Source: Leptolyngbya sp. Prado105 (GTDB taxonomy: Bacteria > Cyanobacteriota > Cyanobacteriia > Leptolyngbyales > Leptolyngbyaceae). From it: 42,598 bases of DNA. The stretch lies in NCBI GenBank assembly GCA_025454375.1, contig JALOOO010000013.1, positions 1 to 42,598 on the forward strand, in the 5' to 3' direction. This document shows positions 3,426 to 42,598 of the stretch, piece by piece; within the stretch, counting starts at the first letter, position 1; every line of letters begins with the position of its first letter. A model generated the notes under the pieces. The model was given only the letters and a program-made list of their open reading frames with translations, searched no databases and was not told where the DNA came from. The translations under genes and the position numbers were made by a program.

Positions 3426-3542
3426 TTATTCTAAATCGCGGCGGTTGGGGTTCCGAGCGGGGTCATTCGAGAGAAATCCGAAGACGAATAGACCGATGAA
3501 GAAGAAGACGGTGATATATACAACGATTTTGAGCGTGATCAT
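3426..3542 (-). CDS. psbI: Photosystem II reaction centre protein I (PsbI)
   Basis: 38 residues, beginning [19 protein letters not shown] and ending NPNRRDLE, the usual length and the conserved ends of PsbI. One transmembrane helix spans about residues 5-24, and the charged tail faces the cytoplasm. PsbI is a low-molecular-mass subunit next to D1 and CP43 that helps stabilise early photosystem II assembly intermediates. A GGAG ribosome-binding site lies about 8 bases before the ATG. The gene has its own likely promoter and terminator, so it is probably monocistronic. Confidence 0.95.
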
Positions 3543-3589
3543 GTGAATGACTCCAAACTGGTTTGGCGGGGTTTGAAATTAGTCCCTTT

Positions 3590-39928: not shown

Positions 39929-40087
39929 TGAGATGGCTTTAATAAGTGATTCAAAGGGAAGTTGGAGAGTGAGGAGCGCTGACATAAAGCTTTTTCCCGC
40001 TCGATTCCCACATTTTAGAGCAAATGGTCTACTCAATTTGAAAGCTACTAGAGGAAATATACACCCGTACATCCTCTAGCATCCTCA

Positions 40088-40330: not shown

Positions 40331-40384
40331 TGTGGGATGGGCATCTTGCCGGACTCCGGAAAGCAGGCAAGATGCCTGCCCCAC
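40331..40384. repeat. REPIN: inverted pair of REP palindromes
   Basis: GGGCATCTTGCC on the left and GGCAAGATGCCTGCCCCACA on the right are inverted copies, separated by about 15 bases, forming one long hairpin bounded by TGTGGG and CCCACA. The core GGCATCTTGCC is the same as in the REP copies at 41827-41850 and 42384-42407. Confidence 0.85.
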
Positions 40385-40479: not shown

Positions 40480-41754
40480 TTAAAAGATGCTGGCGCTTTG
40501 GCTATTTAATTTTCTACAACGAGAACGACCCTCAATTAGCTGATGACCTTGTAACGTTAACTGATGACTCTGTGCAGACTCCTTAGCTTTCTGCTCTTTG
40601 CAACCATAAATCCCGCTTAGTAAGCCCCAGCTATCAAGTACTAGTGACCAAAACTCCATAAAATGCCATTCATATAGGGGAGTCAGATGTGCAGCGCGAT
40701 TACGAAGATGTCCAAGTTGATCAAGAATGGATGCGGCTTGTTCTCCCTGCGCTAGCCAAGTTGCAGCTGGATGTTCCCACTGTTGAATGAATTTGCGAAT
40801 GACTTGTCTATCAAATTCACTTATTTGATCGCGAGGTTGGTATTCAAAAAGAAGAGCATCCCTATCTTTAAAGTCCCACTCTGGCTTATCAAACTCAGCA
40901 GGAATAAACCGCTTCCATTGTTTTGCAATTAACCTTGGAAGCTGACCGATTGTGTGACTCTGTTGACCTCTCAGTTGAAGTCCCCCAATTTCAAAGGTTC
41001 TTTCTTGTTTATTGGCTGATTGCACCAAGAAATTGTAAAGCGCTTCAAAGAAAGGAGCTACGACTTCCGTTTCTACAACCAATCCCAGTCTTGTTCCGGC
41101 TTCCGTATAGTCACTAAAAACATCCCTTTTTTTTGTGATCCTATAATTCATGTTTGCCAGAATGAGGTTTGTCCGGCTAGATTCAGATATGCTTTGCCAA
41201 ACATTACTTCCAATCAAAGCCTCGATTTTCTTGCCAACTTTGTTCGCATCATATGACAAGGACGATTTTTTGATTTGAGATTGTAGACTTTGAATCTCGG
41301 TTTCTCTGCGTTCGATTTCTGCTTCTTTTGCTAATAGTGAAGCTTGGAGAGTTGCTAATTGCTCTTGCTGTTCAGTTGAAAATTGACTGATTGTTTTTTG
41401 AAGGATTGCAATTTGCTGTCTCAAATTTCTAATCTGCTCATTCTTGCTATGACTCAGTTGCCTCTGCTCCGCAATGAGTTGGTCTTTCTCTTTAATAATT
41501 TGATTTCTCTCTTCTGCTTCTAAGCATTGGATTGCAGTTTTAATTAAATTATAGAAATGTGGTTTAGTTACATCGATTTCTTCATTTTTTCCATTAGTTC
41601 TCTCAAGCGTTCCAACTCTTTGTCCCTTTCTAACGACTAGAGTATCACCCTGAGCATTGTAAATTCTGAGTTCTCCTAAAGCCCCTGAAAGGATATGGCA
41701 AGTATATCTACGCTTGCTATAGTCAAAAATCGCCTTAACGTTATAGAGCAACAT
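40480..41754 (-). CDS. Coiled-coil protein with C-terminal Rx4H (HEPN-like) motif
   Basis: 424 residues from the ATG at 41754. A longer frame starts at GTG 41850, but its first residues (MGQARCLPFF) are just translated REP sequence. The N-terminal about 70 residues form a small beta-rich module (YTCHILSGALGELRIYNAQG). A long coiled coil spans about 80-163. The C-terminal half is helical and contains LGHLRNRAAHLTP, an Arg-x4-His motif (about 351-356) as in HEPN RNases, preceded by WLAQGEQAASILD. The HEPN match is motif-level only. Codon use and AT-richness differ from the core genes. The likely setting is accessory or defence, but this is unproven. Confidence 0.6.
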   Translation of the reverse strand: MLLYNVKAIFDYSKRRYTCHILSGALGELRIYNAQGDTLVVRKGQRVGTLERTNGKNEEIDVTKPHFYNLIKTAIQCLEAEERNQIIKEKDQLIAEQRQLSHSKNEQIRNLRQQIAILQKTISQFSTEQQEQLATLQASLLAKEAEIERRETEIQSLQSQIKKSSLSYDANKVGKKIEALIGSNVWQSISESSRTNLILANMNYRITKKRDVFSDYTEAGTRLGLVVETEVVAPFFEALYNFLVQSANKQERTFEIGGLQLRGQQSHTIGQLPRLIAKQWKRFIPAEFDKPEWDFKDRDALLFEYQPRDQISEFDRQVIRKFIQQWEHPAATWLAQGEQAASILDQLGHLRNRAAHLTPLYEWHFMEFWSLVLDSWGLLSGIYGCKEQKAKESAQSHQLTLQGHQLIEGRSRCRKLNSQSASIF

Positions 41755-41826
41755 ATTTTCTTGATGAATACTGAGAATGTTTCTCCAATATGATTCCCCC
41801 ACGATAAGCCAAATAACTTTGAAAAA

Positions 41827-41850
41827 GGGCAGGCATCTTGCCTGCCCCAC
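41827..41850. repeat. REP palindrome, downstream side of RAYT
   Basis: GGCAGGC-ATCTT-GCCTGCC hairpin followed by CCCAC, 7 bases past the stop of the transposase. It has the same ATCTT loop orientation as the copy at 42384. Confidence 0.88.
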
Positions 41851-41856
41851 CTGACA

Positions 41857-42365
41857 TTAAAGATATGGAAATTGGTTTGATGAGAGATCTAATGAAGGTT
41901 GTTGCCACAGAAAGGGATATTGCTCTGGAGTTTCAGATAAACCTGCTCTAACTGGATTTAGTCGAATGTAATTCCAGAAATTCTCAAACTCATGCGCATC
42001 TCTGACAATACGATCGTACCGTTCATCCTGCCAAACGACTCCGATATGATTCATCGCAGCAGCAATCTTTTTAGCACTATATCCCTTCATGCTTTTCATG
42101 ATCTCACTCAGGCTCCAAAATTTTGATTCAGTTTTCAATAGAGGCTGAACAATCAGATGGACATGATCAGGCATGACAACGACGATAAAGACTTTGTATC
42201 TCTGATTGTTGAAGAATAAGCAAGTGTCTAAAGCGATCTGCCGAGCCTGAAAACTTAGCTCAAATTTTTTCCAAGTATTGAACGTAATAAAGTAGCGCCA
42301 TCCAACTCCCAATGTGGGAGGTTTCGCTTACTAAATTTTACCTGTCTATTTCCAATTTTCTTCAT
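41857..42365 (-). pseudogene. REP-associated tyrosine transposase (RAYT), frameshifted
   Basis: A Y1/IS200-like transposase of the RAYT group. The HUH motif is in VVMPDHVHLIVQ, the catalytic Tyr in SMKGYSAKKI, and WQDERYDRIVRD and EFENFWNYIRLNPVRAGL are typical. The conserved frame has no ATG, only a TTG at 42312. The missing start, MKKIGNRQVKFSKRNLPHWE, is in another frame from ATG 42365 and meets the main frame near 42294-42303, where about one base is missing (GGCGC-TACTTT). HWELDG then YFITFNTW reads as one RAYT N-terminus. The gene is therefore probably inactive unless rescued by frameshifting or unless this is a sequencing error. REP copies flank it on both sides. Confidence 0.85.
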
Positions 42366-42383
42366 TACTAATGGAATCTCCCT

Positions 42384-42407
42384 GTGGGGTAGGCATCTTG
42401 CCTGCCA
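42384..42407. repeat. REP palindrome, upstream side of RAYT
   Basis: GTGGGGTAGGC-ATCTT-GCCTGCCACC; one G-T wobble in the stem. It lies 18 bases upstream of the proposed RAYT start and is in direct orientation with the copy at 41827. Confidence 0.88.
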
Positions 42408-42433
42408 CCAGCCCCAAGAATTCCCCTTCAAAC

Positions 42434-42465
42434 TAAAAATCCCCCACCCGAAGGCGAGGGATTTT
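42434..42465 (-). terminator. Terminator of psaB
   Basis: On the minus strand AAATCCCTCGCC-TTCG-GGTGGGGGATTT forms a strong stem with a stable TTCG loop, followed by TT then AG. It lies 27 bases after the psaB stop. Confidence 0.85.
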
Positions 42466-42492: not shown

Positions 42493-42598
42493 TCAACCAA
42501 ACTTACCCGCAGTAGCAGCAATCACGAAGGCTGCATACGTCAGCACATAGCCCGCCGTGAAGTGGACCAGACCGACCAACCGAGCTTGAACGATCGAT
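42493..42598 (-). CDS. psaB: Photosystem I P700 apoprotein A2 (PsaB), 3' end only
   Basis: The last 35 codons of psaB; the rest lies beyond the window. The C-terminus reads [20 protein letters not shown] then [14 protein letters not shown], matching the end of PsaB, which is one of the two large subunits that bind P700 and the electron-transfer cofactors of photosystem I. The last transmembrane helix is included. The gene is partial because of the window edge, not because of damage. Confidence 0.93.

Follow-up and report, generated by a model that had tools for sequence, protein, structure and literature searches.

The stretch of DNA analysed here (the window; 42,598 nucleotides) is an entire contig of a 383-contig draft assembly of a 5.69-Mb genome, 93.4% complete. 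At the edge of the contig, the minus strand carries the truncated 3′ end of psaB (photosystem I P700 apoprotein A2; 42493–42598; Pfam PF00223, 28.3 bits with a cut-off of 23.3), followed by a terminator hairpin (42436–42465; inverted repeat I4), a REP, an ATG at 42365, a break in the reading frame and the body of a REP-associated tyrosine transposase (RAYT). Past the RAYT stop at 41857 lie a second REP (41850–41827) and an ORF of 456 amino acids (40480–41850), the listed GTG start of which falls within that REP; profile and family searches with this ORF returned just matches below cut-off or ones without an informative name. The terminator is genus-native, present in all seven same-genus genomes (by eye and BLAST), and the BLAST similarity to the genus stops at 42421–42437, 15–31 bases beyond the upstream REP. 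A second match to the psaB tail lies elsewhere in the same genome (78% identity, G000:C67:38319–38417, locus L069), and a weaker second match of this kind is found in seven of the eight genomes of the genus. Further inside the window, about 85 bases at 39936–40019 share 84% identity with a region of genome G004 (L057, 2697–2781) that lies downstream of both psaB and its neighbour, and part of the stretch, 39970–40014, also matches locus L059; from its sequence, it looks like a dispersed element.

The identification of the gene as a RAYT, made in the preliminary description, is borne out by NCBIfam: the body, 151 amino acids from a TTG at 42312 (minus strand, 41857–42312), scores 92.9 bits against NF047646, REP-associated tyrosine transposase, with a cut-off of 80, and 33 bits against PF01797. 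An insertion sequence of the IS200/IS605 type was considered and rejected, NF033573 reaching 25.6 bits on the body, under its cut-off of 55. Elsewhere in the same genome, an IS200-like Y1 transposase gene adjoins a CRISPR-like array (L001, approximately 1100–1500; repeat ATTGCAATTAACATGAAACCCTTTCAGGGATTGAAAC, by eye). The HUH motif of the window RAYT, HVH at residues 50–52 (minus strand, 42157–42165), and the catalytic tyrosine Y115 within YIRLNP (codon at 41968–41970, minus strand; compared with Table 1 in the available part of PMC6006769) are both intact, and both are invariant across the 10 sequences aligned; Y7, F8, T10 and F11 of the YFITFN stretch are likewise invariant. In a wider alignment of 23 close-clade members, from which L085 (C-terminally broken) and L093 were omitted, the window departs from 2 of the 48 invariant columns, and the other members, each left out in turn, break from zero to four (L027 the most with four, then L087 with three). 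Differences from L005 at codon positions 1, 2 and 3 amount to 0.30, 0.12 and 0.50 for the window and to 0.22–0.31, 0.10–0.16 and 0.46–0.60 for six other members. The terminal branch of the window RAYT, 0.40–0.41, is the longest in one tree and the second longest, after L027, in another.

Ahead of this body, and out of frame with it, lies the normal N-terminus. A reading frame opens at ATG 42365 with the stretch MKKIGNRQVKFSKRNLPHWELDGA, is conserved through PHWELDGA and, after 36 codons, runs into a TAA, the full frame (minus strand, 42255–42365) reading MKKIGNRQVKFSKRNLPHWELDGATLLRSILGKNLS and ending at 42255; the body sits in the −1 frame relative to it. The preliminary description was thus right that the two parts are in different frames but put the shortfall at about one base: the spacing from HW to YF is 14 nt in the window, whereas each of the 29 relative loci whose HW is in frame (24 distinct, five sharing their matched segment with another row) has 18 nt, which makes a net loss of four bases, placed at 42292–42299 of the minus strand. 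The comparison covered 42 loci, the window and 41 relatives; of the 12 relatives without an in-frame HW, 11 have no HW match inside 60 nt, and L088 has an out-of-frame match at a spacing of 17 nt. Twelve named relatives read LPHWE..GA.YF.TF within a single frame, and the alignment to related RAYTs, suggested at the outset as a check, makes the break real relative to every relative with the HW motif. As the window lacks a single open frame across the whole protein, we class the gene as a pseudogene.

An error of sequencing or assembly, the gene being really intact, would leave both the N-terminus and the body well conserved, as they are, and the join does lie about 300 bases from a contig end in a 383-contig draft. 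The net four-base loss sits outside any long homopolymer, however, where it would be unusual as a short-read error, and we hold this account to be improbable. Programmed −1 frameshifting (programmed frameshifting was also raised by the preliminary description) or polymerase slippage could in principle join both frames at the heptamer A_AAA_AAT (minus strand, 42264–42270), which we take to be a slippery site and which is in phase with the N-terminal frame and ahead of its stop. Yet the product of such a shift would exchange the invariant YFITFN stretch for unrelated residues, and the 12 named relatives manage with one frame; the idea is weak, and we give it very little credence.

Another possibility is a shortened but functional protein. 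Translation from the TTG at 42312 would give M-G-V-G-W-R-YFITFN and onwards, with the YFITFN stretch, the HUH motif and the tyrosine intact and the catalytic core complete. Seven diverged-clade loci lack the PHW segment (L028, L029, L030, L031, L090, L091 and L095), and in four of them (L029, L030, L090 and L095) the longest ATG frame starts four to five residues ahead of YFVTF. A structure model retains the strand at residues 6–13, although with a mean pLDDT of 55.4, for which reason we used it for strand order alone, this carries little weight. Against a short protein, those seven loci are just 43–51% identical to the window RAYT. The preliminary description had named relatives without the HWELDG-like N-terminus as what would tell against it, and the 12 relatives without an in-frame HW are of this kind, but at identities of at least 52% there are only two, L094 (60%) and L083 (58%), and their N-terminus differs. 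Inspection by eye shows nothing like a ribosome-binding motif ahead of the TTG, but AGGGAG, presumably such a motif, stands before ATG 42365; the low numbers of REPs described below also speak against a working enzyme. We regard a functional short protein as unlikely, though the body contains no additional stop, and an intact body of this kind would also be expected if a shortened protein were in use. With HVH, the tyrosine and 46 of the 48 invariant columns kept, the break appears young, and the pattern suggests either a gene that stayed conserved for a long time and was disrupted only late in its history, or one with a body that continues to be used.

The two REPs flank the gene closely, within the 20 bases originally claimed: the gap is 6 bases at the stop and 18 bases at the ATG. 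The upstream copy (plus strand, 42384–42406) has the head GTGG at 42384–42387, a TCT loop and no mismatches to the REP pattern; the downstream copy (minus strand, 41827–41850) has its GTGG head at 41850–41847 and the loop AGA, flipped relative to the usual TCT. Their hairpins are GGGTAGGCATCTTGCCTGCC at 42387–42406 and GGGCAGGCATCTTGCCTGCC at 41827–41846, and as DNA the two REPs fold with −6.8 kcal/mol (z −2.8) and −11.5 kcal/mol (z −5.0), respectively. The direct orientation assigned to them earlier does not hold when judged by the consensus head GTGGGG: the heads are inverted, upstream reverse and downstream forward, both facing the gene and both of the form GT[AG]G. The same layout of inward heads is seen in 8 of the 10 distinct psaB-linked relatives, the other two (L082 and L085) having no match on one side, and the loops of the relatives, read from the gene-facing head, are TCT or TCC. 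Direct orientation is what the loop triplet suggests, the downstream copy having it flipped, and is favoured also by another GTGG on the outer side of the upstream REP (minus strand), two bases from the stem GGCA, a distance not seen in the consensus; with the consensus heads pointing the other way, we disfavour it. The head is nevertheless an imperfect guide to orientation, since such two-headed hairpins occur in L005 and L076 as well as in the window. With a palindromic stem, a loop could be flipped by inversion of the hairpin. A search for the AGA form (up to two mismatches) found it once in the window's own genome, and five further genomes contained one to four copies each. The inverted layout of REPs is described as universal for RAYTs in the available part of PMC2817692. 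A REPIN-like doublet of two REPs with the heads outward lies further downstream (40332–40384; DNA fold −16.8 kcal/mol, z −4.7).

The hairpins are not chance palindromes. With up to three mismatches, the REP pattern gives 12 rows representing 11 sites in the 5.69-Mb genome and none in a backward control; four of the 11 lie within the final 2.3 kb of the window contig, two of them forming one doublet. The genome-wide count and the search for another RAYT that the preliminary description proposed returned seven REPs (up to two mismatches; control zero) and no second RAYT of this type in the assembly, itself 93.4% complete, the single match being the window RAYT. Among 13 genomes drawn from the 27 other genomes with a matching RAYT, 11 have from 27 to 421 REPs at the same stringency, and the remaining two, G133 and G042, have 6 and 0, their RAYT ORFs running without a stop before the natural end. 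Genome G356, one of the 11, has 97 REPs in spite of a C-terminally broken RAYT (L085), and in a sample of 39 genomes, G006, G014, G015 and G046 show 33, 21, 27 and 37 REP matches without a close RAYT. Because of these genomes, the number of REPs and the state of the RAYT can be tied together just loosely. In G006, which belongs to the same genus, the orphan REP matches (L058, L105) include several opposed pairs about 30 bases apart, making this genome a natural comparison for the persistence of REPs without the enzyme. Three of the seven REPs in the window's own genome lie in an approximately 100-bp MITE-like repeat with a central REP and the inverted ends GCTGAAT...ATTCAGC by eye (G000:C345:3085–3193 and 3467–3543, C198:2006–2107; L020, L023, L025), present in three copies there and in none of the seven other genomes of the genus; those three REPs may therefore have been dispersed by that repeat. 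The low number of REPs may reflect an inactive source and is also compatible with a recent arrival.

Taken together, we consider it probable that the locus is a RAYT of known kind that became a pseudogene recently, a REPtron placed directly downstream of psaB whose activity as a local source of REPs has likely ceased. Such a unit would consist of a gene for a Y1/HUH single-strand endonuclease between its two REPs. By analogy with the E. coli enzyme, a RAYT with an unbroken frame would recognise the head GTGG together with the hairpin in single-stranded DNA and cut at that point, the presumed route of REP multiplication; the proposal that the cutting drives REP copying comes from studies of the E. 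coli enzyme (available part of PMC6006769). The net loss of four bases near codon 23 would make translation from the normal ATG stop at codon 36, so the full protein would not be made. Without the full protein, the local source would most likely be off, and the very small REP population fits this. The break would be recent compared with how far the gene has diverged, since the remainder is open and conserved. The window RAYT would then no longer cut REPs, and the unit would have come into the genus from outside. Of the three options in the preliminary description, decay of the local source is the best supported, given the real break, the absence of a second RAYT of this type from the assembly and the few REPs; the last of these is, however, a poor marker of activity.

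As a frameshifted RAYT, the locus is ordinary, and its unusual part is the address. psaB lies directly upstream of the RAYT in at least 14 of the 41 relative loci tested, in addition to the window, and the distance from the end of psaB to the RAYT match is 184–437 nt in the psaB-linked loci; 14 is a lower bound because a contig end cuts the upstream side of L006, L075 and L083; L106 and L107 stand outside the count. Among 37 differing rows, 11 are psaB-linked: seven in family f32, two from Nostocales (L011 and L014, without a family number), L077 (f24; genome 83% complete) and the window itself (f1). The linked RAYTs come from three families, that of the window and two others. Across the class sample, a RAYT match at E ≤ 1e−15 was found in 28 of 388 genomes, the window's own included. 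None of the seven other genomes of the genus holds a close copy of the RAYT, although psaB and the terminator are present in all seven; G003 and G007 have just weak partial matches (E 2.2e−4 and 9.3e−5), and the DNA after the terminator varies among the seven, G004 and G006 being alike by eye. Within the window's family, a close copy is absent from all 41 other genomes, four of which have matches at E ≤ 1e−10, all at 43–44% identity and none psaB-linked. Judged from titles and the openings of abstracts, no report of a RAYT adjoining psaB was found among the literature matches listed, and psaB is not mentioned in the available part of PMC6006769. In Dolichospermum sp. FACHB-1091, the RAYT linked to psaB (L015, 1501–2107; identical segment in L085, G356) diverges in sequence directly past the catalytic tyrosine, reading ...QYIPHSAPPSV..., and is, to judge by this, another decayed RAYT at the psaB address. 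Another RAYT relative, L089 (G177), carries an internal TGA midway through its gene.

The RAYT–REP unit is probably foreign to the window's genus: for this speak the missing close copies in the seven same-genus genomes and the distant, unlinked matches elsewhere in the family. The RAYT has a GC content of 0.40 against 0.47 for the window, but by itself this is no marker of a foreign gene, as the neighbouring ORF at 40480–41850 is equally low at 0.40. A two-sided empty site was not found. Homologous replacement via psaB is disfavoured, the last 105 nt of the window's psaB being genus-like, with 86.7–92.4% identity to the psaB genes of the seven same-genus genomes versus 75.2–80.0% to those of 10 psaB-linked RAYT loci from other families. 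Instead of a foreign arrival, ancient inheritance with many losses is possible. The trees place the window RAYT without a firm position. In a first AU test, a single origin of psaB linkage was rejected (p 0.0005; L027 dropped, 36 rows), but that run scored L006 as unlinked, although L006 falls inside the linked clade and its contig has 413 bases ahead of the match. Omitting the contig-edge rows L006, L075 and L083 gave p 0.389 (34 rows), removing L027 too gave 0.395 (33 rows), and leaving out L027, L006, L075, L083 and L031 gave 0.333 (32 of 37 rows), although the upstream side of L031 is actually present. The exclusions were selected after the first result was known, and with p going from 0.0005 to 0.333–0.395 by the rows kept, the psaB-linked RAYTs are neither shown nor excluded to be one lineage.

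Candidate readings of the shared address are transfer, ancient inheritance with losses and a common target site. A tentative proposal, to which we attach rather modest odds, is that the 3′ side of psaB is the residence site of one RAYT lineage that moves from one cyanobacterial family to another as a unit bounded by REPs, the window being an arrival that died. If true, it would mean movement of a whole REPtron, which according to the available part of PMC6006769 seemingly does not happen. The occurrence of the address in three families makes it a place to test whether whole REPtrons move, and to put REP-bounded movement, a long stay with frequent loss and a preferred target to the test.

Among known systems, the structure of PDB 4er8, which we take to be the E. 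coli TnpA-REP, is matched by the intact relative L010 over residues 16–150 (E 5.9e−05), a distant likeness. Another close system is the REPtron of TnpA-REP/RAYT subclass 2.7, which occurs in Cyanobacteria and few other phyla (PMC6006769, available part): the window shares with it DHVH, WQ, the YIR-NP tyrosine motif and a pair of flanking REPs with GT[AG]G heads. Of the motifs that characterise the subclass, [ND]HVH, WQ and YI[LR][NQ]NP, the first two are present in the window and the third, YIRLNP, is off at one place, so that the assignment, made by motif, is tentative; the window further differs from the subclass in its broken frame. RAYT pseudogenes arising by frameshift are known in Pseudomonas and Stenotrophomonas, where frameshift or nonsense mutations have been read as recent pseudogenisation (available part of PMC3686654), as we read the break in the window. 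Unlike those RAYTs, the one described here belongs to another phylum and another class of REP, and it is accompanied by a very low number of REPs.
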